Below are positions 3,449-43,604 of a stretch of DNA of 48,612 nt, one piece after another. The notes under the pieces were generated by a model. The model searched no databases and was not told where the DNA came from. It saw only the letters and a program-made list of their open reading frames with translations. The stretch covers positions 1 through 48,612 of the forward strand of contig JAFROL010000005.1 of NCBI GenBank assembly GCA_017429685.1, written 5' to 3'. A program made the translations under genes and the position numbers. Each line of letters starts with the position of its first letter. Position 1 is the stretch's first letter. Origin of the DNA: Bacteroidales bacterium (lineage in GTDB: Bacteria > Bacteroidota > Bacteroidia > Bacteroidales > P3).

Positions 3449-3450
3449 GA

Positions 3451-3494
3451 TTTATTAATTCGTTAATGTGTTAATTTGCTAATTCGTTAATTCA
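3451..3494. repeat. TTAATTCG/TTAATGTG low-complexity spacer
   Basis: This spacer between the permease stop and the ATPase start is almost entirely repeats of TTAATTCG and TTAATGTG. It uses the same words as the arms of the larger composite repeats at 7.2, 8.8, 9.5, 10.0 and 11.9 kb. Confidence 0.7.
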
Positions 3495-5909
3495 CTATTC
3501 ACTCTTTAGTACCTTTGCGGGATTGGATTTGACGGCACTCAGGCTCCGCAAAGTGACCACTGTTACGGTGACGGCCAATACTCCCAGCAGGGCTATGGCA
3601 AAGACCCAACAATACAGGGGGACACGATAGGCAAAGCCTTCCAAATAGCGATGCATAACAATGATACTGACGGGTAGGGCTATGACGAAGCTAACGATAA
3701 CAATCCATACAAACCGTGTGTTGAACATTGTAAGAATCTGCTGCACCGTAGCGCCGTGGACGCGGCGAATGCTGATTTCTTTCCGTCGGCGCTCGGTCTC
3801 GAACATCACAAGTCCAAAAACGCCCATCAGTGAGATGATGATGGCTAAGGCGGTGAACAGCGTGATTAATTGGGAGAGATTCTGTTCTTTTTGATATTGA
3901 CTTTGAAGCGTCTGGTCGAACAGTTGCACATCGAAATCGTCTGACGGGATGGAAGGGTCCAGTTCGTGCAGAGTATTCCTAATCTGCTCAATCAAGGCAG
4001 GGACATCAGCGCCAGGCACTGTGCGGACAAAGAGCGTCATACAGGGCCGCCACGGCTTTTTGCCGAAGACGTATAGCGCGAACGGCCCTACTTTGTCGCG
4101 CAGCGAGGAAAAATTGAAGTCGCTGCAGAACCCTGCAATCTCGGCAGGAGAATTGGTGTGGCCTTGGATCTGGTCGTCCAGGTGGATATCGTACATCTTT
4201 TGTGCGGTTTGGTTCAAGATGTACACTCCATTTTCGGACTGTTCGTCGGCAGGCAGGAAATTGCGGCCTTCAACGATGTCGATACCCATAAAATCCAGGA
4301 AATTCCACGATACGGGATAGCATTGCCAGTGGACATCTTCGTTTCGTAGTTTTCGGCCCCATCCCATCCGCTGGTCGATGACAAACGGACCGTCGCCCCA
4401 AGCCACATCCTTGATGGCCGGGTTGGCACGAAGCCGGATTTCGGCATCGGCGCGGTTAAAGCCGATCTTGGGGGATGTCATTGCTGTGAGCAGCTGCTCC
4501 TTGTCGAAGCCCAAATCCCTGCTGAGCATAAATTTGCGTTGTTGGTGTATGAATATGGCACATATAATCAGGACGATGGAAACAGTAAACTGCAGTCCTA
4601 TCAAGCCTGTACGAAACAGATTGCCTTTTCCCGCGGTGCCGAAGGTGCCTTTCAACGCAAAAGCGGGGTTGACAGCTGTGGCGACTATGGCCGGGTAAAG
4701 ACTTGCCGCTACCGAGACAAGCAGTGCCGAGCCTATGGTCAAAAGAACGATACCCCAATTCTGGTCGAACTGCAACGGAGCATCAATCAACGAGGCCAGG
4801 GAGGAACGACAGAAAAGCGTGACAATCAGCAAAGCAAATGCCAAAGCAATGACATTCATTACTACCGACTCGACCACCATGGACATTATCAGCTGGAAGC
4901 GGCTGCTTCCCAAAACCTTGCGTGTATTGATGCTTCGCAGGCGCAACGGCATCATTGCAAAGAAAAAGTTGATGTAGTTGATAAAGGCGATTATGAGGAC
5001 AGCCATTGCTATGGCAAGGAGGGTCATAGTGGTGGTGCGGTTGCCTGTTTTGCCTGGCACGTTGGCGTTTACGGCAAAATAGGCATCGGTGAGTTTCATC
5101 AGATGGAGTTTGAATTGCTCAACCATATTGTCAAACGTTTCTTTATCACTTTTGTCAAGTGACGACAGATCCAAGTTGTTGGAACGCGCCCAGACATCTT
5201 TCATTATAGGCAACGATGCGTCCTCAAAGTCCGTAGGGTCTGTACCTTCGTGCAGCTTCACGAAATAATGGTAGCTCCACTGACTAAAGTTTTCCAAACC
5301 ATCTTTTCCGATATTATAAAACATATCGAACGAGGCAAGGTCACTTTGTGACGGCACATCCTCGTAGATGGCCACAATGTAGGCATCATCAATGTGGAGT
5401 CCGCGCCAGTCTTCGCGCCGAAGCTTGGCGACATCGCCCACACCTACGCCGATGCGCTTGGCAGCCGACTCGGAGATGGCATAGGTGTTGCCGTCAATCC
5501 AGTTGTCCCAACTGCCAGCAACGAGTTTGAAACCAAAAACATCTTTTCCGCCATTGCTGAAGGCTCCGATTCTCACCTCAATATGCCGACCATCTTCCAT
5601 AACGATGTCGGCAGAAGGACAATTGTCGCCAATGTAGCCGCATCCGCCGCTCTCGACCTCGGGCGAAGAGGCTATGATTGCCTCTGAAATCGGACGGTTC
5701 ATCCAGCAGGAGTAGTTGTTGTCCGAAAACTGGTCTTTGACCATCATACAGTATATTCTGTCGCTGTCCTTTATCGATTTATTGTAAGTGAAGTCGTGGT
5801 GCACCTGGACAAGGATAACGTACAGCGCAGCGAAAGCCGCAGCCAGTCCAATGATGTTGAGAACAGAAGGAACCAGCGTTTTTTTATTGCTTTTAAAAAG
5901 TCTTGGCAT
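3495..5909 (-). CDS. FtsX/MacB-like ABC transporter permease (proximal)
   Basis: Inner-membrane permease of the same exporter, 804 aa, starting at MPRLFKSNKKTLV. Hydrophobic stretches give a helix near residues 14-36, a large periplasmic domain, three helices around residues 300-430, another helix with a second periplasmic domain, and three C-terminal helices. The FtsX motif RRKEISIRRVHGATVQQ precedes the penultimate helices. It is similar in layout to the 792-aa permease downstream but clearly diverged in sequence, so the two are ancient paralogues rather than a recent duplication. It sits 32 bases downstream of the MacA-like adaptor and upstream of the ATPase, in the same operon. Confidence 0.88.
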   Translation of the reverse strand: MPRLFKSNKKTLVPSVLNIIGLAAAFAALYVILVQVHHDFTYNKSIKDSDRIYCMMVKDQFSDNNYSCWMNRPISEAIIASSPEVESGGCGYIGDNCPSADIVMEDGRHIEVRIGAFSNGGKDVFGFKLVAGSWDNWIDGNTYAISESAAKRIGVGVGDVAKLRREDWRGLHIDDAYIVAIYEDVPSQSDLASFDMFYNIGKDGLENFSQWSYHYFVKLHEGTDPTDFEDASLPIMKDVWARSNNLDLSSLDKSDKETFDNMVEQFKLHLMKLTDAYFAVNANVPGKTGNRTTTMTLLAIAMAVLIIAFINYINFFFAMMPLRLRSINTRKVLGSSRFQLIMSMVVESVVMNVIALAFALLIVTLFCRSSLASLIDAPLQFDQNWGIVLLTIGSALLVSVAASLYPAIVATAVNPAFALKGTFGTAGKGNLFRTGLIGLQFTVSIVLIICAIFIHQQRKFMLSRDLGFDKEQLLTAMTSPKIGFNRADAEIRLRANPAIKDVAWGDGPFVIDQRMGWGRKLRNEDVHWQCYPVSWNFLDFMGIDIVEGRNFLPADEQSENGVYILNQTAQKMYDIHLDDQIQGHTNSPAEIAGFCSDFNFSSLRDKVGPFALYVFGKKPWRPCMTLFVRTVPGADVPALIEQIRNTLHELDPSIPSDDFDVQLFDQTLQSQYQKEQNLSQLITLFTALAIIISLMGVFGLVMFETERRRKEISIRRVHGATVQQILTMFNTRFVWIVIVSFVIALPVSIIVMHRYLEGFAYRVPLYCWVFAIALLGVLAVTVTVVTLRSLSAVKSNPAKVLKSE

Positions 5910-5941: not shown

Positions 5942-7198
5942 TTAATCTATTATCAGCACCTCGCTTTCGCCGTAGTGGTCGTAGCTGCCGGTGAGGACTT
6001 TCTCGCCGGGGCGGAGGCCTTCGAGGACTTCGTAATACTGCGGGTTCTGGCGGCCGATGCTGATGGTGCGCTTTTCGGCACGGTGGGGGTCGGTGAGGAC
6101 GTAGATCCACTTGCCACCGGTGTGCTGGTAGAAGCTGCCGCGAGGGATGAGGAGGGCCTCTTCGCTCTGGCCCAGCTGCAGGTTGAGGTAGTAGGTCTGT
6201 CCGGCGCGGATGTTGTCGGGAATGGTGTCGCCGAAGAGGAAGTCAGCCTTGAACTTGCCGTCGCGCACGTCGGGATAGACCTTGCGAAGGCGGGCGCTGT
6301 AGTGCTGCTCCTGCCGGTCGAAGGTGGCGCGGAGGCCTGCGGTGACGCGGTCGATGTAGTGCTCGTCTATCTGGGCTTGAATCTTGTAGCTGTCGAGGTT
6401 GTTGATCTGGCCGATGGCGGCACCGGGGTTGATGTTCTGCCCCAGCACGACGTCGAGGAGGCCTATCTGTCCGTCGATGGGAGCCTTGACGCTGAGGTTC
6501 TCCTTGCGGCGGCGTATCATGGCCATATTGAGGCGCATATTGCTCAGATTGTCGCGCAGCTGCTGCAGCTCTTCGCTGCGGTACAGGCTGTCCTGCCGCT
6601 CACGCTCGCTGACCACCTCCAGTTTGTCGCAGGCCAGCTGATAGTCCTCTTGCGCTTTGAGGTATTCCTCGCGGGCGATGAGGTGCTCGTCCCAGAGCTG
6701 CTGGCTGCTCTCGTAGGCCCGTTTGGCGCGGCGCACTTCGACCTGTAGGGCCAGTCGTTCCTGACGGACGGAGAGTTTCTGCTGCTGCATACTGATAAGG
6801 GTGTTGCGGAGGATGTTTTCTTTCTCGGCCAACTCGGCTTCGGCGTTGAGTATTTGCAGGTCGAGGTTTTCGTTGCTCAGTATGAGTATAACGTCGCCAG
6901 CCTTCACCTTAGTGCCCTCCTCGGCCACAATCTGCTGGACGATGCCGCCCTCGGTGGGGCTCAGCTGCACAGATGTCATCGGCATAACGGTGCCGCTGAC
7001 GCGGATGTAGTCGTCGAAGTCGGCGCGGAGGACTGTGCTGACGGTGAGTGCGTCGCCGCTGATGCGCTGTGTGCTGCTGTGTGGCCGCACGATGAGGAAG
7101 AGGATAAAGGCGGCCAGCAGCGCCGCTCCCCAGTAGGGAATGGCTTTTCGTGTGAAGGCCCTGCGGAGGCCTTTTTTCTTTTCTATTTGTATGTCCAT
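5942..7198 (-). CDS. MacA/HlyD-like periplasmic adaptor subunit
   Basis: Membrane-fusion protein, 418 aa, bridging the inner-membrane ABC transporter and the TolC-like porin. A basic cytoplasmic N-terminus precedes one transmembrane helix (about residues 24-41, ALLAAFILFLIV). A biotinyl-lipoyl-like domain follows (GGIVQQIVAEEGTKVKAGD), then a long Glu/Gln-rich coiled coil (about 110-230), the second lipoyl half (SVKAPIDGQIGLLDVVLGQ) and a beta-barrel/MacA-like C-terminal part with GRQNPQYYEVLEGLRPGEKVL. It lies between the porin gene and the permeases. Family, order and length all fit MacA. A HlyD-type adaptor for another substrate cannot be excluded. Confidence 0.9.
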   Translation of the reverse strand: MDIQIEKKKGLRRAFTRKAIPYWGAALLAAFILFLIVRPHSSTQRISGDALTVSTVLRADFDDYIRVSGTVMPMTSVQLSPTEGGIVQQIVAEEGTKVKAGDVILILSNENLDLQILNAEAELAEKENILRNTLISMQQQKLSVRQERLALQVEVRRAKRAYESSQQLWDEHLIAREEYLKAQEDYQLACDKLEVVSERERQDSLYRSEELQQLRDNLSNMRLNMAMIRRRKENLSVKAPIDGQIGLLDVVLGQNINPGAAIGQINNLDSYKIQAQIDEHYIDRVTAGLRATFDRQEQHYSARLRKVYPDVRDGKFKADFLFGDTIPDNIRAGQTYYLNLQLGQSEEALLIPRGSFYQHTGGKWIYVLTDPHRAEKRTISIGRQNPQYYEVLEGLRPGEKVLTGSYDHYGESEVLIID

Positions 7199-7202
7199 AA
7201 TA

Positions 7203-7282
7203 TGTTAATTCGTTAATGTGTTAATTCGTTAATGTGTTAGTAGGCTGACGCGGTCGTTTTGTTAATTTGTTATTCCGTTATC
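7203..7282. repeat. Composite repeat: TTAAT arm plus GCTGACGCGG core
   Basis: Tandem GTTAATTCGTTAATGT words lead into TAGGCTGACGCGG, followed by more GTTAAT words. The core word GCTGACGCGG and the arms recur at 9.5, 10.0 and 11.9 kb. It separates the porin and adaptor genes. Confidence 0.7.
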
Positions 7283-7306
7283 TTGATATAACGACATATC
7301 GAATTT

Positions 7307-8662
7307 TTATATGAGTTCTCCAGTTAGATAATAATTGAGTTGGTGCTGTTTCAGCTGCAGTTGGAGCAGGGCGTTAATGTTGTCAGCTTCGGCGGTGAGG
7401 AACGACTGCGAGGCGGTCTGGTATTCGATGGCGTTGATAAGCCCCAGCGCGTACTGTCGCTGCGCGAGGAGGAAAGCCTGATGCTTCACTTCGGCCATCC
7501 GCGCGGCCTGGCGCGCGGCGGCTTGGGCTGTCGCCACCTCGTCGCGCGCTCGGCAGAGGGCGTTGTCGCGTTCGCGCTGAGCTTGTTCGAGACGCGCTTG
7601 CGCCCTTGACACTTCGTTCTTGCTCTTGTTGAGAGCCAGACTGCGCTGTCCCTTGCTGTAGATGGGGATGCTCAGCGTGAGCTGCACATACTCGCCGCCG
7701 TTGTTTTTCCATTGCTCGCGGAAAGGCAGAGGCTGATAGCCCTCCATATCGGGATAGGTGTAGTAGGTGGTGGACCAGCCCGCATTAAGCGACAGCGACG
7801 GCGACCAGGCGCTGCGGGCCTGCCGCAACTGCAGCTGGGCCTGACGGAGATGGGCCTTGGCAATTTGCACAGAAGGAAGGACAAAATGGTTTTCGTTTTC
7901 GTTTTCGTTATCGTTATCGTTATCGTTATCGTTATCGTTATCGTTTTTCGTTATCGTTTTCGTTATCGTTTTCGTTATCGACAGGCTGCTGTCGGCGGGC
8001 CAGCACATGGTCTCTTTGAGGGTGAGCAGTGCCTGCGCCAACTGTCCTTGGGCTTGCGTCAGCTGGAATTGGCGCTGGGCCTGTTCGGACTCCATTTGCA
8101 CCACGTCGGCGTGCCCCTTGCGTCCCAGTGCCTCTTCGCGCTGGGCCTTAAGGAGGGCACTGTCGGCAGTGGCTGCCTGCTGTCGCAGTACCTCGACGAG
8201 TCGGTCGTAGTAGACCACCTGGTAGTAGGCCTCCATCGTGGCCAGGCGCACCTTGTCGGCGGTCTGCTGCTCCTGGCTGAGCCCCATCTGCTGCTGCACT
8301 TTGGCCATACGCAGTCTGCTGATGGCTTGGAAACCGTCGAACAGCGTGATGCCCGCCGACAGCGAGTAGCCGTTGTGGAAAGTGGTGAAGTCGGTGTAGG
8401 TGTTGGTTTCGGGGTCCAGGTTGCGGCCGTATTGGTTGTAGGCATAGCTTTGTGCGCTGACGCTGGGCGTGAAGGCGCCAAGGAAGGCCTGCACCCTTTC
8501 GGCACGTTCGTCGCTGCGGTCGGCGGCGGAGAGGCGCATCTCGGTGGAGTGGCCTACGGCGTAGTCCATACAGGCCGAGAGGCTCATCGGTTGCCCGTGG
8601 AGTGCGCTGCAGCCGAGGGTGAGGCAAATCAGAAGGATCGGTATTGTTTTACGGCGGATCAT
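7307..8662 (-). CDS. TolC-family outer-membrane efflux protein
   Basis: Outer-membrane channel of the tripartite exporter, 451 aa. It begins with a signal peptide (about residues 1-24, ILLICLTLGCSALHG) and contains two TolC-type repeats rich in Ala, Gln and Glu with long coiled-coil helices (for example RVQAFLGAFTPSVSAQ and the C-terminal AEADNINALLQLQLKQHQLNYYLTGELI). It is the first gene of the efflux operon. Odd feature: a simple-sequence hexamer repeat at 7889-7980 encodes a K-T-I-T stretch followed by an N-D and N-E stretch at about residues 228-258, between the two TolC halves. The change of peptide register shows that a one-base indel happened inside the repeat. Confidence 0.9.
   Translation of the reverse strand: MIRRKTIPILLICLTLGCSALHGQPMSLSACMDYAVGHSTEMRLSAADRSDERAERVQAFLGAFTPSVSAQSYAYNQYGRNLDPETNTYTDFTTFHNGYSLSAGITLFDGFQAISRLRMAKVQQQMGLSQEQQTADKVRLATMEAYYQVVYYDRLVEVLRQQAATADSALLKAQREEALGRKGHADVVQMESEQAQRQFQLTQAQGQLAQALLTLKETMCWPADSSLSITKTITKTITKNDNDNDNDNDNDNENENENHFVLPSVQIAKAHLRQAQLQLRQARSAWSPSLSLNAGWSTTYYTYPDMEGYQPLPFREQWKNNGGEYVQLTLSIPIYSKGQRSLALNKSKNEVSRAQARLEQAQRERDNALCRARDEVATAQAAARQAARMAEVKHQAFLLAQRQYALGLINAIEYQTASQSFLTAEADNINALLQLQLKQHQLNYYLTGELI
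7889..7980. repeat. CGTTAT/CGTTTT hexamer microsatellite inside the TolC gene
   Basis: About 15 tandem copies of CGTTAT or CGTTTT (plus strand). The 6-base phase is broken once by a seven-base unit (CGTTTTT) near 7943-7949. On the coding strand the repeat reads ATA ACG AAA ACG before this point and AAC GAT after it, so the frame moved but stayed open. Confidence 0.92.
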
Positions 8663-8817
8663 TTGTTGTTTAAGGAATGCTTTGGTTAAAAAAATGATTA
8701 CATTTTAACCATAACAAGAACCGTGCCAAAAACAATACTGATTTGATTTCCAAAGATTTCAAGAAACCCAATTGGAACAAAAGTGTAAAATTTCTTTACA
8801 GAAGTGTAAAGAGAATG

Positions 8818-8936
8818 CGTTAATTCGTGAATTCGTTAATGTGTTAGTGGCTGCCGCATCAAAGGAGCAAAAAACGGAAAGCGGAGAGCCCTAACGCGGT
8901 AGCCAGCTTTCCGTTTTCCGTTCTCCGCTTTCCGTT
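8818..8936. repeat. Composite repeat with heptamer runs
   Basis: A TTAATTCG/TTAATGTG arm, then GTGGCTGCCGCATC, then ACGGAAAGCGGAGAGC, then CTAACGCGGTAGCCAGC, then CTTTCCGTTTTCCGTTCTCC. The last run is the reverse complement of the preceding one, so the element can fold on itself. It reaches the stop codon of the acetyltransferase gene. Bases 8663-8817 upstream of the porin start hold no gene. Confidence 0.75.
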
Positions 8937-9473
8937 CTATTGGTGTATCTCTCTGATTACGCGTGCCGGGGTGCCGGCAACGACACTGTTGTCGGGCACA
9001 TCCTTGGTCACCACCGACCCTGCAGCCACTATGGCGTTGCGACCTATAGTGACGCCGGCAAGTACGGTGACATTGGCTCCTAGCCAGGCGTTTTGCTTGA
9101 CGACGATGGGCTTGGTGAGCAGTGTGTGGCGCTGGGAAGGCTCCTCGGGATGGTACTCTGTGGCGAGGACGCAATGGGGACCAATAAAAACGTCGTCCTC
9201 GATGGTGATGCCGCCAAGGGCAAGCAGGGTGCATCCGAAATTGAGGAAACAGTCGCTGCCGAAGCTGACGCCAGGACCGTAGTTGATATGTATGGGTGTG
9301 AAGACGCGCATATCGGCCGGCACGGTGCGGCGCGTGATGTCGCTCAGGCAAGCGCGAACTTCGTCCTCGGTGCGATAGCCGCTGTTCATTTCGGCCACCA
9401 GACGCATAGTGCGCTGCACTTCGGCATAGACAGCATCGCTGCCGACATATTTGTTTTCGTTATCGTTTTCCAT
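8937..9473 (-). CDS. Maltose/galactoside O-acetyltransferase-like protein
   Basis: Left-handed beta-helix (hexapeptide repeat) acetyltransferase, 178 aa, in the size range of Maa/LacA/NodL. The N-terminal part resembles the Mac domain. The helix has repeats such as INYGPGVSFGSDCFLNFGCT, ITIEDDVFIGPHCVLAT and VTIGRNAIVAAGSVVTKDV, and ends in the typical VVAGTPARVIREI. The family catalytic His is probably the one in ATEYHPEEPSQRHTL. It likely uses acetyl-CoA to acetylate a sugar or sugar-like acceptor in the cytoplasm. The N-terminus MENDNENKY is encoded by the same GATAAC/GAAAAC words that build the TolC microsatellite. It lies alone between composite repeats, so context says little about the substrate. 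Confidence 0.88.
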   Translation of the reverse strand: MENDNENKYVGSDAVYAEVQRTMRLVAEMNSGYRTEDEVRACLSDITRRTVPADMRVFTPIHINYGPGVSFGSDCFLNFGCTLLALGGITIEDDVFIGPHCVLATEYHPEEPSQRHTLLTKPIVVKQNAWLGANVTVLAGVTIGRNAIVAAGSVVTKDVPDNSVVAGTPARVIREIHQ

Positions 9474-9474
9474 A

Positions 9475-9650
9475 ATGTTAATTCGTTAATTTGTTAACTT
9501 GTTAATTCGTTAATTTGTTAATCCTGTTGTTGACATATTAATATGAAGCAATGACCGCGTCAGCCTCGCTCTCCGTTTTCCGCTTTCCGTTTTCCGCTTA
9601 ATTTGCTGCGTCAGCCACTAACGCATTAACACATTAACGCATTAACACAT
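9475..9650. repeat. Composite repeat with inverted TTAAC arms
   Basis: The left arm is tandem GTTAATTCGTTAATTTG. The core has ATGACCGCGTCAGCCTCG, then CTCTCCGTTTTCCGCTTTCC runs, then TGCTGCGTCAGCC. The right arm is ACTAACGCATTAACACATT words, complementary to the left arm. It fills the gap between the acetyltransferase start and the MmcQ stop. Confidence 0.8.
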
Positions 9651-9992
9651 TCATCTCCTATATTTCTGTTTGACAATAAGGTATGAATTCAGCGTCAGCA
9701 CACGCATCTGGCGGTTGTCGGCCAACTCGGGATTGACGCCAATCCAGTGGCGTTCTGAGCCGTTGTAGGGCTTGCCGACGGCAGCGCAACGTTCCTTGAG
9801 TTCGGCAATGCGCTCGGGCTGGCACTTGAGGTTGACGACGGTGAAATTGTCGGCGTCGAAATAGGAGAACATATGCCCGGCGACATAGAACACCAAGACT
9901 CCACGGGCGGCCTTGAATGCGCCGAAGGGCATCCGCTCTTCGACGTCGTCGCCCAGCGACAGGCAATAGCTGCGATATTCTTCTATATTCAC
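9651..9992 (-). CDS. MmcQ/YjbR family protein
   Basis: Small cytoplasmic protein of 113 aa, the normal length for the MmcQ/YjbR (DUF419) family. Typical features are the N-terminal helix, GDDVEERMPFGAFKAARG and the C-terminal HWIGVNPELADNRQMRVLTLNSYLIVKQK. The start codon is GTG at 9992. The family has a fold resembling DNA-binding proteins, but its biochemical role is not established. It stands alone, bounded on both sides by composite repeats, so no operon partner is suggested. Confidence 0.85.
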   Translation of the reverse strand: MNIEEYRSYCLSLGDDVEERMPFGAFKAARGVLVFYVAGHMFSYFDADNFTVVNLKCQPERIAELKERCAAVGKPYNGSERHWIGVNPELADNRQMRVLTLNSYLIVKQKYRR

Positions 9993-10000
9993 GGTGATGG

Positions 10001-10289
10001 CAATTCGTTAATTTGTTAATGTGTTAATTCGTTAATCCCGTTGTTGAAAGCAATGACCGCGTCAGCCTCGCTCTCCGTTTTCCGCTTTCCGTTTAATTTG
10101 CCGCGCCAGCCTCGCTCTCCGTTTTCCGCTTTCCGTTTAATTTGCCGCGCCAGCCTCGCTCTCCGTTTTCCGCTTTCCGTTTAATTTGCCGCGCCAGCCT
10201 CGCTCTCCGTTTTCCGCTTTCCGTTTTCCGCTTAATTTGCCGCGTCAGCCACTAACGCATTAACACATTAACGAATTAACACATTCACT
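10001..10289. repeat. Largest composite repeat, with a 44-bp tandem array
   Basis: The left arm is TTAATTTG/TTAATGTG/TTAATTCG words (10004-10037). GACCGCGTCAGCCTCG follows, then three near-identical 44-bp units at 10071-10114, 10115-10158 and 10159-10202 and a variant fourth unit from 10203. Each unit starts CTCTCCGTTTTCCGCTTTCC and ends GCCGCGCCAGCCTCG. The right arm is ACTAACGCATTAACACATT words, inverted relative to the left. This fills the 300-base gap between MmcQ and porX; no gene is seen in it. Confidence 0.88.
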
Positions 10290-10292
10290 CAT

Positions 10293-11843
10293 TCATTTGT
10301 TTCTCAGCGTAATGAATGGAATAAGTATCTCCTCCATCGAGATGCCGCCGTGCTGGAAGGTGTTCATATAGTACTGCACGTACTGGTTGTAGTTGTTGGG
10401 ATAGGCGAAGAAGTCGCCGCAGTGGGCGAAGATGTAGGGCGAGGTGATGTAGCGCTTGGGGAGGAAAATGCGGCGCGGCTCCTTGACCTCGAAGACCTGC
10501 TTAGGATTGTAGTCGAGCAGGCGCCCTTGCTTGTAGCGCAGGTTGACGGATATGTCGCGGTCGCCCTTGACGCGCACGGGGTTGTCGATGCGCACCGAGC
10601 CGTGGTCGGTGGTGATGACGATGTTGACGTCGCGTTCGGCCAGGTACTTGATGACTTCGAGCAGCGGCGAATGTTCCATCCAGGAGAGTGTCACGGAGCG
10701 GTAGGCACGCTCGTCGCTGGCCAGCTCGCGGACGATGTTGCTGTCGGTACGGGCGTGCGAGAGCATATCTATAAAGTTGTATATTATAATATTCAGCTTG
10801 TTGTGCATCAGGTTGGGCAGGCTGTCGACAAGCTTCTTGCCGTGCTGCACGTTCAGCACCTTGTTGTAGCTGTGCTTGATGTTGATGCCGTGCCGCTTCA
10901 GGTTCTCGCCCATCAGTTCGCTTTCGAACTGGTTTTTGAAGCCTTCCTCGTCCTCGTTGACCCAATATTGGGGATACTTGCTTTCGATTTCGGCAGGCAT
11001 CAGGCCGGAAAACATACTGTTGCGGGCGAACTGCGTGGTGGTGGGAATGATGCTGTAGTATATCTCGTCGCGCTCCGTGCGCAGATATTGCTCAATGAGG
11101 GGCTGGATGTATTTCCACTGGTCGTAGCGGAAATTGTCGATGACGATCATAAAGGTCGGCCGGTCGTCCTGCAGCAGCGGGAAGAGGCGGTCGCGCACCA
11201 CGGTGGGCGACATCAGCGGCTTCTCGCTCGTGCCGTTAACCCAGTCGATATAGTTGCGCTCGTAGAAGCGGCTGAAAAGCTGGTTGGCTTCGGCCTTCTG
11301 CGAACGGAAGATGTCGTGGATGTTCTCGTCCTCCGTGTTGGCCAGCTCCAAATCCCAGTACACCAGCTTCTTGTACAGCTCCACCCACTCGTTGGCATCG
11401 AGACGGTCGGACAACTGCATACTGATGTCGCGAAACTGCTGCTGGTAGCTGAACGTCGACTTCTCGCTGACCAGGCGGCGCGCCTCGGTGTGCTTCTTGA
11501 CCGAAAGCAGTATCTGGTTGGGATTGACGGGCTTGATCAGGTAGTCCGAAATCTTGCCGCCAAGTGCCTCGTTCATAATATGTTCCTCTTCGCTCTTGGT
11601 GATCATAATCACCGGTACACGCGGATAGAGCCGCTTGATTTCGGCCAGCGTGTCGAGGCCGCTGATGCCAGGCATATTCTCGTCGAGGAACACCAGGTCG
11701 ATGTCGCCATCGGCCAGTTCGTCGAGGGCTTCGCTGCCCGAGGTTACAGGTATGACTATGTAGCCCTTGTCTTCAAGGAAAAGGATATGAGGTTTGAGGA
11801 GGTCGATCTCGTCGTCGGCCCAAAGAATTTTTATCTGGTCCAC
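10293..11843 (-). CDS. porX: PorX-type response regulator with PglZ domain
   Basis: Cytoplasmic regulator of type IX secretion, 516 aa, GTG start. Residues 1-125 form a receiver domain: acidic pair D10/D11, phospho-acceptor D54 in LVFLDENMPG, and the conserved Lys in DYLIKPVNP. From about residue 200 there is a PglZ/alkaline-phosphatase-like domain with metal-site candidates in VIDNFRYDQW, TTTQFARNSMFSG, ITTDHGSVRI and HCGDFF. This architecture is characteristic of PorX, which in studied Bacteroidota acts with the kinase PorY and an ECF sigma factor to control T9SS genes. The T9SS operon lies 14 kb to the right, and no PorY gene is present in the window. The gene is flanked by composite repeats on both sides. 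Confidence 0.93.
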   Translation of the reverse strand: MDQIKILWADDEIDLLKPHILFLEDKGYIVIPVTSGSEALDELADGDIDLVFLDENMPGISGLDTLAEIKRLYPRVPVIMITKSEEEHIMNEALGGKISDYLIKPVNPNQILLSVKKHTEARRLVSEKSTFSYQQQFRDISMQLSDRLDANEWVELYKKLVYWDLELANTEDENIHDIFRSQKAEANQLFSRFYERNYIDWVNGTSEKPLMSPTVVRDRLFPLLQDDRPTFMIVIDNFRYDQWKYIQPLIEQYLRTERDEIYYSIIPTTTQFARNSMFSGLMPAEIESKYPQYWVNEDEEGFKNQFESELMGENLKRHGINIKHSYNKVLNVQHGKKLVDSLPNLMHNKLNIIIYNFIDMLSHARTDSNIVRELASDERAYRSVTLSWMEHSPLLEVIKYLAERDVNIVITTDHGSVRIDNPVRVKGDRDISVNLRYKQGRLLDYNPKQVFEVKEPRRIFLPKRYITSPYIFAHCGDFFAYPNNYNQYVQYYMNTFQHGGISMEEILIPFITLRNK

Positions 11844-12029
11844 AGTATTGTTATTGCGTTAGTGTGTTATTGCGTTATTACGTTAGTGTGTCTTTGACAT
11901 TGCGTTATTGTGTTATTACGTTAGTATTTGCCGCGTCAGCCTCGCTTTCCGTTTTCCGCTTAATATGACGCGTCAGCCACTAACACGTTAACACATTAAC
12001 GAATTCACACATTCACATTAACGCATTTT
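11844..12029. repeat. Composite repeat between porX and mfd
   Basis: The left arm is GTTATTGCG/GTTAGTGTG words. The core is TTTGCCGCGTCAGCCTCG, then CTTTCCGTTTTCCGCTTAAT and GACGCGTCAGCC. The right arm is ACTAACACGTTAACACATT words ending in ATTCACACATTCACATT. It occupies the divergent intergenic region, so it lies over the porX promoter region. Confidence 0.8.
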
Positions 12030-12113: not shown

Positions 12114-15100
12114 ATGTTGTTGACTGAAAGATACAAAAACTCTAAACTGGCCGCTGAATTGTGCGCCAAACTGGCCGCGAGCCAGGCACGCATCCACATC
12201 AACGGTCTCACCGGCAGCCTGCCCGCCGTGGTCGGCGCCACTCTGGCACAAAGCCTGCCGCAAAGCAACCTCGTCTTCATCGTGGGCTCGAAAGAAGACG
12301 CCTACTACCTGCAAAACGACCTCGAAACACTGCTCTGCCCCCACCGCAAGGCCGACGACGACATTGACGCCACCGAATGCCCGGTGATGATTTTCCCCAC
12401 CACCTACCGACGCCCCTACCAGACCGACGAGACCGACAACGCCAACGTGCTGATGCGCTCGGAGGTGGTCAAGCAGCTCGGTGCCGGCCGCCGTATGGTA
12501 GTTGTATCCTACCCCGAAGCCCTGGCCGAAAAGGTCATATCATCCAAAACACTGACACGCAACACACTGCAAATCTTCAAGGGCAGCAAGCTCGATATGG
12601 ACTTCGTCATCGAAACGCTGCAGGAATACACATTCGAGCGCGTCGACTTCGTCGTCAATCCTGGTCAGTTCGCTGTGCGTGGCGGCATCATCGACGTCTT
12701 CTCCTACGCCAACGAAAAACCTTTCCGCATCGAGTTCTTTGACGACTGCGTCGATTCGCTGCGCAGCTTCGATCCCGTCACACAGCTCTCCATACGCCAT
12801 TTCGACCAGGTCAGCATCATCCCCGACCTCGAAAGCCGGCAGGGCGGCAGCCTCAAGATAGAAGAAAAAGTCAACCTGCTGCAGTATTTCGGCAGCGAGG
12901 ACATCGTCTGGACCTACGGCCTGATGTACATCAGCGAAACCATCGAGAAATGCTACGCCACCGCGGTAACGGAATACAAAAAGATTGCTGCCGACAAGCA
13001 GCAGGACATCATACGCCTGCACAACGCCAAGCCCGACGAGTTCTATTCCTCCGCCAATGAATTCCTCAAGGCCCTGCTCAACTGCAAGGTCATCGAGACC
13101 GGCAACTCGTCGTTCTTCTCCAAAGCCACCGTCGTCGACGCCCACAGTGACCCGCAGCCCTCGTTCAACAAGCAGTTCGAGCTCCTCAAGCAGTCGCTGT
13201 CGGACTACAACGAGCGCGGCTACACCCTCAGCATCAGCGCCAGCAGCGAACAGCAGCGCAAGCGCCTCGACAAAATCTTTGCCGAAAGCGGTATGTTCTC
13301 CGACACTATCACCTACCTCGACTATTCGCTGCGCAAGGGCTTCATCGACCACGACGAGCATCTGCTCTGCTACACCGACCACGAAATCTTCGAACGCTAC
13401 CATAAATACACCGTCCGCGACCTCAGCCAGAACCGCGAGGCCCTGACCCTCAAAGAGCTCTTCGAACTCAAGCCCGGCGACTACGTCACACACATCGACT
13501 ACGGCGTGGGACGCTTCTCGGGCCTCGAAAAAATCGAGACCGGAGGCAAGCAGCAGGAAGTCATTCGTCTGGTATACAAGAACAACGACACCCTCTACAT
13601 CAGCATCCACGGCCTGCACAAAATCAGCCGCTACGTGGGCAAAGAGGGCGTAGCCCCCACCCTAAACCGTCTGGGCAGCAACACCTGGCAGGTGCTCAAG
13701 CAGAAAACCAAGAAGCAGGTCAAGGACATAGCCCGCGACCTCATACAGCTTTACGCCAAACGCAAGGCCACACGCGGCTTCGCCTTCAGCGCCGACAGCT
13801 ACCTGCAGAACGAACTCGAAGCATCCTTTATGTATGAGGACACTCCCGACCAGCTCAAGGCCACTGTCGACGTCAAGCACGATATGGAGTCGTCCTCTCC
13901 TATGGACCGCCTGGTGTGCGGCGACGTGGGCTTCGGCAAGACCGAAGTGGCCATCCGCGCCGCCTTCAAGGCCGTGTGCGACAGCAAGCAGGTCGCCGTC
14001 CTCGTCCCATCCACCATACTCGCCTTCCAGCACTTCAACACCTTCACCGAACGACTCAAAGGGCTGCCCGTCAACATCGACTACCTCAACCGCTTCCGCA
14101 CCACCAAGGAGAAAAACCAGATAGCGCGCGACCTCGAAAGCGGCAAACTCGACATACTCATCGGCACACACGCCATCACCAACAGCAAGCTGAAATTCAA
14201 AGACCTCGGCCTCCTCATCGTCGACGAAGAGCAGAAATTCGGCGTCAGCGTCAAAGAAAAGCTCAAGCAGATGCGCACCAACGTCGACGTGCTGACCCTC
14301 ACCGCAACACCCATTCCGCGCACACTGCAGTTCTCACTGATGGGCGCCCGCGACCTCAGCGTCATCCAGACACCACCGCCCAACCGCCAACCCATCCAGA
14401 CCGAACTGTCGCCCTTCAACGAAGAGCTTATCCGCGACGCCATCAGCTTCGAGCTGTCGCGCGACGGACAAGTCTTCTTTATCTCCAACCGAGTCGAGAA
14501 CCTGCCCGAAATGGCAGGTCTCGTCAGCCGTCTCGTCCCCGACGCACGCGTGGCCATAGCACACGGACAAATGGAGGGCAAAGTGGTCGAAGACACAATG
14601 ATGCGCTTCATCGAAGGCGAAATCGACGTCCTCGTCTCAACAGCCATCATCGAAAACGGCCTCGACATCCCCAACGCCAACACGATGATTATCAACAATG
14701 CCCAGCAGTTCGGCCTCAGCGACCTGCACCAGATGCGCGGCCGCGTGGGGCGCAGCAACCGCAAAGCATTCTGCTATATGCTTGTCCCCTCCTTCAGCTC
14801 GCTGACCGACGACGCACAGAAGCGACTCCGCGCCATCGAAGAGTTCGCCTCCGTGGGCAGCGGTTTCAACATCGCTATGCGCGACCTCGACATCCGCGGT
14901 GCCGGCAACATACTCGGTGCCGAACAAAGCGGCTTCATCAGCGAGATAGGCTACGATATGTACCACAAAATCCTCAACGAAGCCATCGAAGAACTCAAAG
15001 AGACCGACTTCCGCGAACTATTCCAGCCAGACACCCAAGCGGAAAGCGGAAAGCGGAAAGCGGAAAACGGGAAAGTCGACACGTCAGCCTCGCTTTCCGC

Positions 15101-15608
15101 TTTCCGCTCTCCGCTTTCCGCTTTCGTCAAGGAGTGCACCATCGAGACCGACCTCGAAGTACTCATCCCCGACGACTACGTAAGCAACATCAGCGAGCGA
15201 CTGCAGCTCTACAAAGAGCTCAACGACATCGGTATCGACGACAAGACCGGCAGCAACGAAAACCTCGAAACCCAGCTCGACAACTACCGCGAGCGCCTCA
15301 TCGACCGCTTCGGACCCATCCCGCCAGCCACACAGGAGCTCATAAAAACCATCACCCTGCGGCGTATGGCCAAAAATTTCGGCATCGAAAAACTCGTCCT
15401 CAAGCAAAACAAGATGGTGCTCTATTTCCCCTCCAACCAGCAAAGCCCCTTCTACCAGTCGCCAAATTTCACGCGCCTCATATCCTACGCACAGGACCAT
15501 CCACGCAGCGTACATCTGCGCGAGACCACCGACCGTCTGACGCTCGTCTGCGACAACGTCGACTCCATCCACAGCGCCATCGACAAGCTCAACACCCTCA
15601 CCCAGTAA
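12114..15608 (+). CDS. mfd: Transcription-repair coupling factor Mfd
   Basis: Removes RNA polymerase stalled at DNA damage and recruits UvrA; cytoplasmic, DNA-bound. It is 1164 aa from the ATG at 12114 (MLLTERYKNSKLA). A TTG 60 bases upstream keeps the frame open but is too close to the -7 box to be the start. Order: UvrB-like N-terminal domains, the polymerase-interaction domain (GDYVTHIDYGVGRFSGLEKIE), helicase motif I (VCGDVGFGKTEVAIRAA), motif II (LLIVDEEQKFGV), motif III (TLTATPIPRTL), motif VI (QMRGRVGRS), the TRG-type region and a C-terminal domain. Oddity: a palindromic composite-repeat insert at 15037-15125 encodes about 30 extra residues in the linker before the C-terminal domain. 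Confidence 0.95.
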   Translation: MLLTERYKNSKLAAELCAKLAASQARIHINGLTGSLPAVVGATLAQSLPQSNLVFIVGSKEDAYYLQNDLETLLCPHRKADDDIDATECPVMIFPTTYRRPYQTDETDNANVLMRSEVVKQLGAGRRMVVVSYPEALAEKVISSKTLTRNTLQIFKGSKLDMDFVIETLQEYTFERVDFVVNPGQFAVRGGIIDVFSYANEKPFRIEFFDDCVDSLRSFDPVTQLSIRHFDQVSIIPDLESRQGGSLKIEEKVNLLQYFGSEDIVWTYGLMYISETIEKCYATAVTEYKKIAADKQQDIIRLHNAKPDEFYSSANEFLKALLNCKVIETGNSSFFSKATVVDAHSDPQPSFNKQFELLKQSLSDYNERGYTLSISASSEQQRKRLDKIFAESGMFSDTITYLDYSLRKGFIDHDEHLLCYTDHEIFERYHKYTVRDLSQNREALTLKELFELKPGDYVTHIDYGVGRFSGLEKIETGGKQQEVIRLVYKNNDTLYISIHGLHKISRYVGKEGVAPTLNRLGSNTWQVLKQKTKKQVKDIARDLIQLYAKRKATRGFAFSADSYLQNELEASFMYEDTPDQLKATVDVKHDMESSSPMDRLVCGDVGFGKTEVAIRAAFKAVCDSKQVAVLVPSTILAFQHFNTFTERLKGLPVNIDYLNRFRTTKEKNQIARDLESGKLDILIGTHAITNSKLKFKDLGLLIVDEEQKFGVSVKEKLKQMRTNVDVLTLTATPIPRTLQFSLMGARDLSVIQTPPPNRQPIQTELSPFNEELIRDAISFELSRDGQVFFISNRVENLPEMAGLVSRLVPDARVAIAHGQMEGKVVEDTMMRFIEGEIDVLVSTAIIENGLDIPNANTMIINNAQQFGLSDLHQMRGRVGRSNRKAFCYMLVPSFSSLTDDAQKRLRAIEEFASVGSGFNIAMRDLDIRGAGNILGAEQSGFISEIGYDMYHKILNEAIEELKETDFRELFQPDTQAESGKRKAENGKVDTSASLSAFRSPLSAFVKECTIETDLEVLIPDDYVSNISERLQLYKELNDIGIDDKTGSNENLETQLDNYRERLIDRFGPIPPATQELIKTITLRRMAKNFGIEKLVLKQNKMVLYFPSNQQSPFYQSPNFTRLISYAQDHPRSVHLRETTDRLTLVCDNVDSIHSAIDKLNTLTQ
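15037..15125. repeat. In-frame palindromic heptamer repeat inside mfd
   Basis: The left half is AAGCGGAAAGCGGAAAGCGG and similar units. The centre is GTCGACACGTCAGCCTCG and the right half is CTTTCCGCTTTCCGCTCTCC and similar units, so the two halves are inverted. It is read in frame as A-E-S-G-K-R-K-A-E and then S-A-F-R-S-P-L-S-A-F. Confidence 0.93.
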
Positions 15609-15637
15609 GAGCGGAAAGCGGAAAACGGAAAGCGGAA
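15609..15637. repeat. Heptamer repeat directly after the mfd stop
   Basis: GAGCGGAAAGCGGAAAACGG and following copies begin immediately after the TAA stop codon of mfd. They are the same heptamer run that is inserted inside the gene 480 bases earlier. Confidence 0.85.
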
Positions 15638-15675
15638 ATCCAAAATTCACAATTTTCCATTTTCAAAAAAATTCG

Positions 15676-19031: not shown

Positions 19032-19113
19032 CACACTATTTTTCAAATAGAAAAATATTATTTATAAAATAATGATAACATATTAATTATTAACATTTTA
19101 ATACATTTTCATA

Positions 19114-19363
19114 GTGGCATTTGGAGCATTTTTACCGTGGCATTTGGAGCATTTTCACCGTGGCATTTGGAGATTTTTCACCGTGGCATTTGGAGCATTT
19201 TTACCGTGACGTTTGGAGATTTTTCACCGTGGCATTTGGAGATTTTTCACCGTGGTATTTGGAGATTTTTTACCGTGGAATTTGGAGACTTTTCACCGTG
19301 GCATTTGGAGATTTTTCACCGTGGCATTTGGAGATTTTTTACCGTGGCGTTTGGAGTTTTTTA
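19114..19363. repeat. Eleven-unit 23-bp tandem array
   Basis: Units start at exactly 23-base steps: 19114, 19137, 19160, 19183, 19206, 19229, 19252, 19275, 19298, 19321 and 19344. Each begins GTGGCATTTGGAG or a close variant and ends in a T tract plus ACC. There are no spacers, so it is not CRISPR. Two plus-strand frames stay open through it, with a 23-residue peptide period, but the frames have no sensible start context. Confidence 0.95.
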
Positions 19364-25154: not shown

Positions 25155-25180
25155 GCACAGGCCACCTGTGCCGCCTTTTT
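25155..25180 (+). terminator. Hairpin terminator after the pseudouridine synthase
   Basis: GCACAGG and CCTGTGC form a seven-base-pair stem with a CCA loop, followed after four bases by five T residues. Confidence 0.55.
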
Positions 25181-25193
25181 GCACACCGTTTTT

Positions 25194-25250
25194 ATTCAGT
25201 TCTTATATCGTTCTTATATTGCAGATATAAGAACGATATAAGAACTGAGT
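25194..25250. terminator. Long inverted repeat between convergent operons
   Basis: The 23 bases at 25197-25219 are the exact reverse complement of 25225-25247, with spacer TGCAG. Flanking bases extend the pairing slightly. Each arm contains two copies of GTTCTTATAT, so the element is both inverted and directly repeated. It lies between the rluD-type gene and the gldO-like gene, where a bidirectional terminator would be expected. The stretch 25251-25449 beyond it holds no gene. Confidence 0.75.
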
Positions 25251-39373: not shown

Positions 39374-39437
39374 AAAAAGCAATTTCCCCATTCACCACTC
39401 TCTATTCACCAATCACTAATCACAATTCACTTTAATT
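39374..39437. repeat. ATTCAC/ATCAC low-complexity spacer
   Basis: The spacer before the hydrogenase-like gene is built from ATTCACC, AATCACTAATCAC and similar words. It contains no gene and its bias is unlike its neighbours. Confidence 0.5.
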
Positions 39438-41625: not shown

Positions 41626-43604
41626 TCCCCGTCCGCTCTGCGTTTTCCGCTCTCCGTTTTCCGCTCTTCGCTTTCCGCTTCCTGCGGCCAGGCGTCAATG
41701 AACTGCCCTCTTTCCTTGAAGTGCTCAAGCATTGCGCGGAAAAAGCGGTGGCGCGACAACGTCTCGCTATTGCCTATGATTATCAGTTTCATACGGGCGC
41801 GCGTGATGGCGACATTCATACGCCTCAGGTCGCCGAGGAAACCGATTTGTCCTTCCTCGTTGTCGCGCACCAAACTTATCAGTATCACGTCGCGTTCCTG
41901 CCCCTGGAAGCCGTCGACCGTGCGCACTGTCACCTGGCCGCGCAGACGGCGATAGAAACGCTGCATCTTCAGCAGGCGGCGTATCATCCGCACTTGGGCA
42001 CGGTAGGGCGAGATGATGCCAAAGTCGACCCCGTCGGCCACAACGCGCTCCAGCCCAAGCATATCGACATAGTCGCGCAGCGTGTGCACCACCAGGCGCG
42101 CTTCGTCGGCATTGGTCAGGCTGCCGCTCCGCGAACGGCGCTCGCCGCTTTCCGTTCTCACATCTCCGTTCTCCGCTTTCCGTTCCCCTCCACTGGTGTC
42201 GATGAAAGTCAGCGGCGTGTCCATCAGGTGCACCTGGCGGTCGGCCACTTCGGGCGCCGCCTTCAGCGCACCGTGGTAGAACCAGCGCGAAGGGAAATCC
42301 ATTATGTCGCGGTTCATTCGGTACTGCGTCGTCAGCAGGGTGACACATTCCGGCTTGGTCCTGACAACATATTGCATCAGCGTGTCCGACAAGCCTTTGC
42401 GTGCCGCCTCGATGCATTTGACCGTCGGCGGTAGCTGCTGGTGGTCGCCACTCAGCACCACACGGTCGGCCTTCAGTATGGCCGTCCAGCAGGCAGGCTC
42501 CAGTGCCTGCGCCGCCTCGTCGATAAAAAGGGTGCTGAAACGGCGGCGTTCCAGTATGTGGTATGCACTGCCTATCAGCGTGCAGCTGACCACGCGCGCC
42601 TGACGGAACAGGTCTTCATTGATCCTGATTTCCAGCTCGTCGGCACGCTTGCGCATCTGGCGCGCTTTCTCCTTCGACGGCGGCCGGTCGGCGTTGCGCA
42701 GTAGCTGGCGTATCTGCCACAGCTCGGGATAGTCGGGATGGTCGCCATAGCGCCGCTCGTAGCTGCATTCGAGCATCTCGTCGCTCATCTTCAGCGGATT
42801 GCCGATGCGCAGCACATTGACGCTGCGCTTCGAAAGCTGCTCGCTGATCCAGTCGACAGCGGCGTTCGACGGCGCGCAGACCAGCACCTGCTCCTCGCGC
42901 TGTAGGGTCTCGATGATGGCCTCGACCAGCGTGGTCGTCTTGCCGGTCCCCGGAGGACCGTGCACTATGGCCACATCCATCGCCGCAACCACCTGTCGCA
43001 CAGCACGGTTCTGCGTATCGTTTAGCCACGGAAACACCACCGGTGGCAGCTGGCGGAACCGGGGCCGCAAATTGCCAACCAAGGTTTCGCGCAGGCGCAC
43101 AAACTTTTCATTCTCAGAGCGCATAGCCGTCCGCAACGATTCGTGCATCACGCGGTACGATGTGCTGTCGATCGACACGCGGATGCCAAGCAGCGCACGC
43201 TCGGCCGTCTCCTGCAGCACCTTCAGCGCGTCGCGACCGGGCAGCTGCACCTGAATCACACCCTCTTTGTAACTGTCGACGAAACAGCTGTACTTCAGCT
43301 CCTTTACACCACTTTCGCCCTGCCCGTTCGACAGACAGAAAAACGCCACCGCGCTGCCGGGCTCGAAATCGTTCTCCAATTCGTCGCCTTCGGTATCGTA
43401 AGTCACGGTGACAATCAGATGGTTCAGAGCATCATAGCCCCATCCGCTGATGGCAATGGGGTACTTGCAGTCCGGCTCGTTGGCGCGGCCAGTGATGCAG
43501 CCCTCGCCCAACGAACGGGCGTAGGCCGCCGTCTCATAGTCCTGCTCCATCTGCAGCAGCTCGTCCAGCGCCGCCAACCGTGCTATGCTTGTCCTGTTTT
43601 CCAT
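41622..43604 (-). CDS. Superfamily I helicase, IGHMBP2/Dna2 type
   Basis: ATP-dependent helicase of the Upf1-like group, 660 aa from the ATG at 43604 (MENRTSIARLAALDELLQ); a GTG at 43670 would add 22 residues. It has a beta-barrel region (about 90-140), Walker A GPPGTGKTTTLVEAI, Walker B TLFIDEAAQALE, motif III LSGDHQQLPPTV, motif IV region TQYRMNRDIM, motif V TVDGFQGQERDVILISLV and motif VI NVAITRARMKLIIIG. It probably acts in DNA or RNA metabolism in the cytoplasm. Oddities: two composite-repeat inserts, one internal (SGERKAENGDVRTESGE) and one at the C-terminus (E-S-E-E-R-K-TESGKRRADGD). Confidence 0.92.
   Translation of the reverse strand: MENRTSIARLAALDELLQMEQDYETAAYARSLGEGCITGRANEPDCKYPIAISGWGYDALNHLIVTVTYDTEGDELENDFEPGSAVAFFCLSNGQGESGVKELKYSCFVDSYKEGVIQVQLPGRDALKVLQETAERALLGIRVSIDSTSYRVMHESLRTAMRSENEKFVRLRETLVGNLRPRFRQLPPVVFPWLNDTQNRAVRQVVAAMDVAIVHGPPGTGKTTTLVEAIIETLQREEQVLVCAPSNAAVDWISEQLSKRSVNVLRIGNPLKMSDEMLECSYERRYGDHPDYPELWQIRQLLRNADRPPSKEKARQMRKRADELEIRINEDLFRQARVVSCTLIGSAYHILERRRFSTLFIDEAAQALEPACWTAILKADRVVLSGDHQQLPPTVKCIEAARKGLSDTLMQYVVRTKPECVTLLTTQYRMNRDIMDFPSRWFYHGALKAAPEVADRQVHLMDTPLTFIDTSGGERKAENGDVRTESGERRSRSGSLTNADEARLVVHTLRDYVDMLGLERVVADGVDFGIISPYRAQVRMIRRLLKMQRFYRRLRGQVTVRTVDGFQGQERDVILISLVRDNEEGQIGFLGDLRRMNVAITRARMKLIIIGNSETLSRHRFFRAMLEHFKERGQFIDAWPQEAESEERKTESGKRRADGD
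41631..41682. repeat. Heptamer repeat encoding the helicase C-terminus
   Basis: CTCTGCGTTTTCCGCTCTCC and CGCTCTTCGCTTTCCGCTTC run to within a few bases of the stop codon and are read on the minus strand as E-S-E-E-R-K-T-E-S-G-K-R-R-A. This is the same heptamer as in the intergenic composite repeats. Confidence 0.85.
42141..42187. repeat. In-frame heptamer repeat inside the helicase gene
   Basis: CTCGCCGCTTTCCGTTCTCA and CTCCGTTCTCCGCTTTCCG are read on the coding strand as ERKAENG-D-V-R-TESGERR. It sits between the helicase core and the C-terminal RecA-like domain, in a loop. Confidence 0.85.

Follow-up and report, generated by a model that had tools for sequence, protein, structure and literature searches.

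The 48,612-nucleotide contig JAFROL010000005.1 of a Bacteroidales bacterium (GenBank assembly GCA_017429685.1), here called the window, carries arrays of short repeated words, many of them arranged around small GC-rich cores, both in the gaps between its genes and in frame within some of them. These word-repeat arrays are real and genome-wide. The repeat unit is an open set of modules, in which the words vary by locus and by species and the core and the strand polarity can stay. On balance, we lean toward regarding the arrays as palindrome-centred, non-autonomous simple-sequence repeats that spread by slippage and template switching.

Repeat loci in the window and their genomic spread

The window is contig C7 of a 52-contig, 2.65-Mb assembly that is 96% complete (hereafter G000). 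Runs of at least two heptamers occur 15 times in the window, compared with a mean of 0.015 in 200 Markov-1 random sequences, and the same control gives 0.015 for the nine runs of arm words and 0.045 for the four exact copies of GCTGACGCGGC. The core is better described as the palindrome GCTGMCGCGKCAGC, of which GCTGACGCGGC is a part. The original prediction, made from the window alone, singled out five gaps (at 7.2, 8.8, 9.5, 10.0, and 11.9 kb) as sharing one architecture of arms inverted on the other side, a core, and runs of the heptamer AGCGGAA. The counts and the genome-wide spread bear out this composite repeat, but the uniform architecture does not hold. All five gaps have octamer arms and core variants, with heptamers in four of the five; the exact 11-mer core lies in two of them (10239 and 11930), and the remaining gaps hold core variants. 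The plan of arm, core, heptamers, and inverted arm is found at 9.5 and 10.0 kb, each reading arm, core, heptamers, core, and inverted arm, and at 11.9 kb, where the second core is a variant missed by our search pattern. The 7.2-kb gap reads arm, core, arm, with no heptamer run and a second arm that is not inverted, and the 8.8-kb gap is without a right arm. The array loci are listed below, with strand where one applies; L009 and L010 are two of the relatives compared.

3450..3497, plus strand: coreless array of arm-type octamers between two minus-strand genes
7198..7285: gap between HlyD-like and TolC-like genes, with an arm array, core variant GGCTGACGCGG, and a second arm in the same direction; heptamer-free
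7889..7980, minus strand: in-frame hexamer array (GATAAC/GTTATC) within the TolC-like gene; L009 and L010 both have a shorter version
8818..8938: arm, core variant GGCTGCCGC, heptamers, and inverted heptamers; right arm absent
9476..9652: full composite (arm, core, inverted heptamers, core, inverted arm) in the gap between the maa (hexapeptide acetyltransferase-like) and YjbR-like genes
10002..10293: full composite 3' of the PorX-like gene; it includes 3.9 copies of a 44-bp unit made up of core and heptamers
11849..12027: composite (arm, core, heptamers, inverted arm) in the gap between the PorX-like gene and Mfd
15037..15125, plus strand: strong hairpin in the Mfd linker, made of in-frame heptamers, a core variant, and heptamers in inverted orientation (DNA fold z -8.4)
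15610..15638, plus strand: sense heptamers immediately 3' of the Mfd stop codon
20385..20490, plus strand: in-frame heptamers, exact core, and CTCACAT words within the MiaB-like gene
25180..25250: convergent gap with an inverted 11-mer hairpin (GTTCTTATATC) of a related family (DNA fold z -10.8)
39390..39431, plus strand: ATTCACC/AATCACT words immediately 5' of a start codon, the reverse of the GTGAATA family
41632..41680, minus strand: in-frame heptamers at the C-terminus of the AAA helicase gene
42140..42186, minus strand: in-frame heptamers in the interior of the same AAA helicase gene

We take the names PorX, HlyD, maa, Mfd, and MiaB as presumptive, resting on Pfam domains where these were scanned (seven window proteins, HlyD not among them). 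The counterparts of these gaps in relatives range from retention to replacement. The 9476..9652 composite is retained in L010 with small changes, and the 7198..7285 gap corresponds to about 20 bp in L009 and to about 110 bp of GTGACCA-type words in L010. The L010 counterpart of 10002..10293 is a 120-bp gap with GTGACCA words and without the 44-bp repeat, and that of 11849..12027 has a different core and other words. The window also holds a tandem repeat of a different kind at 19106-19362 (23 bp, 11 copies).

The heptamer pattern CGGAAARCGGAAARCGGA is dispersed genome-wide as a tandem 7-nt unit, with octamers and decamers sharing its gaps. It has 262 matches in G000 (149 + 113) and none when reversed, reversal serving as the control for genome patterns. 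A search of the full genome and its relatives had been proposed by the original prediction: the pattern occurs in 11 of the 19 genomes with PorX relatives, most densely in L018 (201 matches), L009 (137), and L010 (115), and in 6 of 40 other genus genomes, with at most 12 matches each. The PorX relatives come from Bacteroidales assemblies, mostly of rumen and other gut samples to judge by their titles, and genomes reached by two routes are probably identical in some cases (G145 and G035 share all 12 heptamer match places). The original prediction was to fall if the repeats were confined to one locus or were assembly artefacts; because the pattern recurs at other loci and in other assemblies, the former is not the case and the latter is unlikely.

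Further counts from G000 come from a sample of 822 kb (31% of the genome). The stretches of G000, of the relative G142, and of 20 genus genomes were chosen at contigs and sites with pattern matches, and their densities are not genome averages. Genes in the 822 kb were called by a simple, non-standard script of our own, yielding 574 genes and 513 gaps. In this sample, CGCG[TC]CAGCCACTAAC has 24 matches versus 0 in the control. In the window's genome the palindrome GCTGMCGCGKCAGC has 17 sites and the exact 11-mer core 27, the latter versus 8 for its reversed control; each of 120 family genomes has 0 to 2 sites of the palindrome. The 20 other genus members carry other short arrays, a few of them as inverted pairs.

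Related families share these genomes. The 11-mer hairpin family, GTTCTTATATC repeated and inverted, has 46 matches on both strands of the 822 kb, all in gaps, and a third family, of GTACGGTATAT-like 11-mers, has 28. Another word family, CTAGACAAT- or ACTAGTANN-like with a self-complementary centre, forms arrays upstream of PorX in L014 and L019 and at about 16.7 kb of G000:C50.

Polarity, position, and turnover of the arrays

The arrays have a consistent strand polarity around their cores. At 18 core sites in the 822 kb, judged by eye, 33 of 36 flanks carry arrays, with forward words (the G-richer strand) on the left and reverse-type words on the right, and none is reversed. Forward words stand left at 16 of the 18 sites and reverse-type words right at 17, the three other flanks being other sequence. 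The flanking words include AAGCGGA, GAGAACT, AGCTGAG, and GTTAATGN, and a second, ACGAACGNGTTCGT-like core accompanies GTGACCA words in the L010 genome and at some G000 sites. Whole strings recur at some loci (heptamers, core, TTAAC arm, then ATTGTCCC with TTAACTCCCC decamers), indicating that modules are dispersed as units.

The polarity extends across gaps. Among the 41 gaps with arrays in two orientations, 39 read plus-minus, one plus-minus-plus-minus, and one minus-plus-minus, with none simply minus-then-plus, and 48 of the 59 one-orientation gaps obey the rule. The four word classes behind the gap and gene census were picked after inspection of the data; a test on arrays from Tandem Repeats Finder (TRF) repeats the polarity result without chosen words, using intergenic arrays with periods of 6 to 10 that lie no more than 80 bp from the edge of a gene and have more than a slight G-C skew. 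Arrays before starts are C-rich in the sense strand in 54 of 62 cases in G000, 18 of 21 in G142, and 14 of 18 in the 20 genus genomes, and arrays after stops are G-rich in 75 of 98, 27 of 37, and 19 of 28, so that 129 of 160, 45 of 58, and 33 of 46 obey the rule overall. A base skew of this kind was not seen in array-less gaps; the skew thus belongs to the arrays, and a general base skew of gaps is rejected as the cause of the polarity. Neighbouring arrays of like words are inverted in 52 cases, direct in 7, and tied in 1 in G000, and inverted in 14 and direct in 11 in G142. Pooled over all genomes, they number 73 inverted, 18 direct, and 2 ties, versus 16.4, 4.5, and 0.6 with shuffled units.

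Arrays are located after stops and before starts and are seldom found in divergent gaps. Of the 513 gaps, 100 hold arrays of the four word classes and 413 hold none. Among gaps longer than 60 bp, arrays are present in 47 of 152 and 29 of 149 tandem gaps, 15 of 52 convergent gaps, and 4 of 58 divergent gaps. The frequent order in two-sided tandem gaps, read in gene direction, is stop, heptamers, core, TTAAC words, and start.

Arrays also lie inside genes. The heptamer occurs in frame in three window genes (Mfd, MiaB-like, and AAA helicase), as originally predicted, and 22 of the 574 called genes, including Mfd and MiaB, have internal heptamer-family arrays. In-gene arrays mostly belong to the purine-rich heptamer family in the sense direction (36 forward, 7 reverse), yielding SGKRKAE-type peptides; 8 of 86 arm arrays lie within called genes. 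The absence of stops from all six frames, which the original prediction stated for AGCGGAA, is true of AGCGGAA and AACGGAA arrays, but the TTAA arm words have stops in all six. The idea that freedom from stops explains the in-frame copies fits the purine-rich sense heptamers, although the repeat is not one element of fixed composition. The Mfd insert occupies the linker ahead of the TRCF domain. Other sequence is found at its place in L010, L019, and L021, and the linker is short in L013, L015, L018, and L031, among others. The L010 linker retains a core variant and the right heptamers, with the left words changed, and the L021 linker retains a core variant with the words changed on both sides.

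Some units fold far better than shuffles as single-stranded DNA, namely the Mfd insert (z -8.4), L128:160-275 (z -5.0), the GTGACC element of L010 (z -6.6), and the 11-mer hairpin (z -10.8). Window positions 8835-8938 fold moderately better (z -3.0; 1 of 200 shuffles equally good).

Array gaps change faster than other gaps between relatives. G000 and G142 share 91 orthologs with a mean protein identity of 89%, and 63 orthologous gaps were compared after excluding orthologs with less than 70% identity or less than 75% coverage and gaps shorter than 20 bp in both genomes (11 of 74). With array strings compared as word classes rather than exact sequence, arrays are absent from 32 gaps and confined to one genome in 18 (13 to G142 and 5 to G000); both genomes have them in the other 13, with matching strings in 3 and differing ones in 10. 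Gaps with arrays have a median identity of 0.44 (n = 30), compared with 0.71 for array-less gaps (n = 26; p 0.005), excluding gaps shorter than 15 bp in either genome or with a longer side below 40 or above 900 bp. Gap lengths contrast between relatives (392 versus 2 bp; 21 versus 93 bp), a nested insertion separates arm from core at C35:152469, and the core is retained with words swapped in the Mfd linker and at C23:30756. The comparison of copy number, empty sites, and flanking duplications that the original prediction proposed does yield filled and near-empty sites; no clear target duplication is evident at them by eye. That a close relative often carries other words at a given site suggests restless copying more than ordinary signals of gene control.

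Origin of the arrays and rival explanations

In the origin that we favor, the typical unit has at its middle a small GC-rich palindrome, whether perfect or imperfect, from which runs of a degenerate short word extend outward on each side (words of 7 or 8 nt in the highlighted gaps); these show the G-richer strand on the 5' side of the core and the C-richer one on the 3' side. The arms would lengthen and shorten by slippage, the palindrome would permit nascent-strand fold-back or a template switch by which one arm may seed the other, and common cores and words would let arms copy between loci via short-homology recombination. Selection would favor words without stops inside genes and words poor in G ahead of start codons, and would keep promoter copies few. 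By and large the arrays would be selfish or neutral, although some copies may tune the 3' ends of mRNAs. A bolder proposal is that a replication or repair process writes G-rich-first inverted arrays outward from small palindromes, coins new words in every species, and replaces them at a higher rate than that at which ordinary intergenic DNA changes; we regard it as conceivable but doubtful.

Several observations weigh against an origin by slippage and template switching, which we infer from anatomy and comparison, having seen no copying event. Only 6 of the 18 cores are perfect palindromes, the other 12 having a mismatched pair. Word types differ between the two sides in most two-sided gaps, and four arm-core-heptamer stretches fold no better than shuffles (z -0.07, -0.17, -1.3, and 0.17). 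The mixed fold results make hairpins a part of the family and not its rule, and simple arm-to-arm copying fails to explain units that have different words per side or do not fold. Hairpin copying alone does not predict the G-rich-first polarity, which is itself broken in 2 of the 41 two-orientation and 11 of the 59 one-orientation gaps. The number of like-word neighbours exceeds the shuffled control, but their inverted-to-direct ratio does not, and G142 has only 14 inverted to 11 direct; the polarity claim therefore rests on the core-flank, gap-orientation, and TRF tests. Finally, the exact 11-mer core is near the reversed-control level in most of the 40 other genus genomes, so that these words and this core mark a few species and not the genus.

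The location of the arrays after stops and before starts, their presence in 15 of 52 convergent compared with 4 of 58 divergent gaps longer than 60 bp, and the confinement of the base skew to array gaps would also suit functional RNA elements kept by selection, which would act at 3' ends as structured bidirectional terminators or stabilisers of mRNA and before starts as G-poor leaders. So would the strong folds of heptamer-core-heptamer and 11-mer hairpins and the 9 of 22 plus-strand 11-mer matches with genes on both sides that lie in convergent gaps. We nevertheless consider such a role unlikely: the in-frame copies in the Mfd, MiaB-like, and helicase genes cannot be terminators, the four composites above do not fold, words and presence vary among relatives, and 413 of the 513 gaps do without any of the four word classes. 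It is more unlikely still that the arrays are mobile palindromic elements akin to repetitive extragenic palindromes (REPs), miniature inverted-repeat transposable elements, or CGTC-tagged REPs, served by a transposase in trans, with arms that turned into tandem arrays. Cores with head-to-head GACG/CGTC and the filled and near-empty sites speak for this origin, as does the available part of the account of CGTC-tagged REPs, which are mostly head-to-head, have no known transposase, and like other REPs may lie downstream of genes or in repair genes (PMC3733652). The 8- to 9-bp stem beside CGTC is absent here, however, target duplications are not clear, and the well-scoring Y1 transposase gene L096 sits amid different hairpins. 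Mobilisation of the RAYT/IS200 type was rejected, as L096 has hairpins of its own and, by eye, no heptamer, arm, or core; the inspection covered L096, the second match, L097, being barely above the cut-off. L096, an IS200-like (Y1) gene at about 130.4 kb of G000:C50, lies among many other hairpins (e.g., GTGTCTCCGACAC and CCTCGGAGAGG), with an AACGAA-type hexamer hairpin about 0.7 kb away, and these hairpins apparently form a separate REP-like system in the same genome. In L025 and L026, an IS200-like transposase reading frame seems, by eye, to come after PorX.

Two simpler explanations have little room. Ordinary long simple-sequence repeats, with cores and inversions incidental, would agree with the neighbour ratio and with the frequency of heptamers among bacterial long simple repeats (available parts of PMC4679880 and PMC4692102). 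Such repeats do not account for the polarity around cores and across gaps or for multi-module strings at unrelated loci, and this explanation is very unlikely. Hardly credible at all is a mutator by-product, in which mismatch-repair loss lets simple repeats expand: MutS1 was not found above the cut-off in the window's genome or in G141, but G000 does have MutL, the missing MutS1 may reflect a gap in an assembly that is 96% complete, and we reject the loss because MutS1 is intact in two dense relatives (G142 and G150, with 115 and 201 heptamer matches). Loss of the hairpin nuclease SbcD is likewise rejected, SbcD being present. Two small genes between PorX and TolC (window 8663-10292) are absent in L009, where the gap resembles the outer halves of two repeat units. 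The idea of gene cassettes, prompted by these repeat-flanked genes, is not general, because gene adjacency, compared with G142, is lost no more often at arrays (3 of 37 gap sides) than elsewhere (14 of 90; p 0.39). Phage carriage was also rejected: by our patterns, all 46 viral stretches with the heptamer pattern are without an arm array and without a core at 100 bp or less.

Comparison with known repeats

The literature searched, with most subscription journals outside its scope, yielded no description of such repeats in Bacteroidales. Rickettsia palindromic elements are palindromic repeats within protein-coding genes, with units longer than the 7- to 8-nt words described here. PARCELs resemble the present arrays as dyad-symmetric or palindromic repeats within protein-coding genes and differ, in the available text, in being longer protein-like units (PMC2996958). 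TAACTGA direct repeats of Beggiatoaceae, Cyanobacteria, and five Bacteroidetes are similarly short tandem TAAC words close before start codons; as described in the part available, they are single-word, nearly always direct, and unpaired around a palindrome (PMC4679880). CGTC-tagged REPs share small, mostly head-to-head palindromes, tandem and convergent gaps, positions downstream of genes and within some repair genes, and the lack of a known transposase. In the available account, their CGTC is unpaired at one end and lies beside an 8- to 9-bp stem with A/T first pairs (PMC3733652). Here CGTC is head-to-head in mid-unit. It is followed by AGC/AGCC and a word array, and the flanks are word arrays without the 8- to 9-bp stem.

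Of the kinds already known, the heptamer repeats of Xanthomonas and Nostoc come closest. The original prediction knew of no named element with this composition, but there is a precedent in these two groups, whose heptamer arrays follow an identical strand rule and include inverted pairs (PMC4692102, here as above in its available part). The GGGAATC and GGGGA(C/T)T heptamers form mostly intergenic tandem arrays, with intragenic copies too, in which the G-rich strand is sense after stops and antisense before starts, with few between divergent genes. Convergent inverted pairs number 70 and 75 in two Xanthomonas, 83% of sites are common to two Xanthomonas, and length and sequence vary between relatives (PMC4692102). 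The Bacteroidales arrays share the strand rule, the inverted pairs, the rarity in divergent gaps, and the variability between relatives. However, each group of the Xanthomonas and Nostoc repeats has essentially a single word, whose G-tracts can form G-quadruplexes, and the Bacteroidales arrays use many words; by inspection, AGCGGAA, GTTAATGT, and GTGAATA lack GGG, and the highlighted words thus do not share the G-tract character, although the modules TTAACTCCCC and GGGTTGA contain GGG. Sites are also less often shared than the 83% in Xanthomonas: 13 of 18 array gaps in G000 and 13 of 26 in G142 have an array of some kind in their counterpart, with matching strings in 3. The palindromic core, the mixed words per gap, and the frequent word change go beyond the available account (PMC4692102).

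The strand rule of the Xanthomonas and Nostoc heptamers thus recurs in an uncultured Bacteroidales genus with many words, which points to a shared cause and not to a sequence-specific function. The repeats alter conserved proteins in frame (Mfd and MiaB-like) and speed gap divergence between relatives, which makes them a natural test bed for the birth and spread of simple repeats and palindromes. If the bolder proposal of a process that writes arrays outward from palindromes is true, the polarity common to Bacteroidales, Xanthomonas, and Nostoc would mark that process as a general and so far undescribed means by which bacteria produce DNA between genes and in frame within them.

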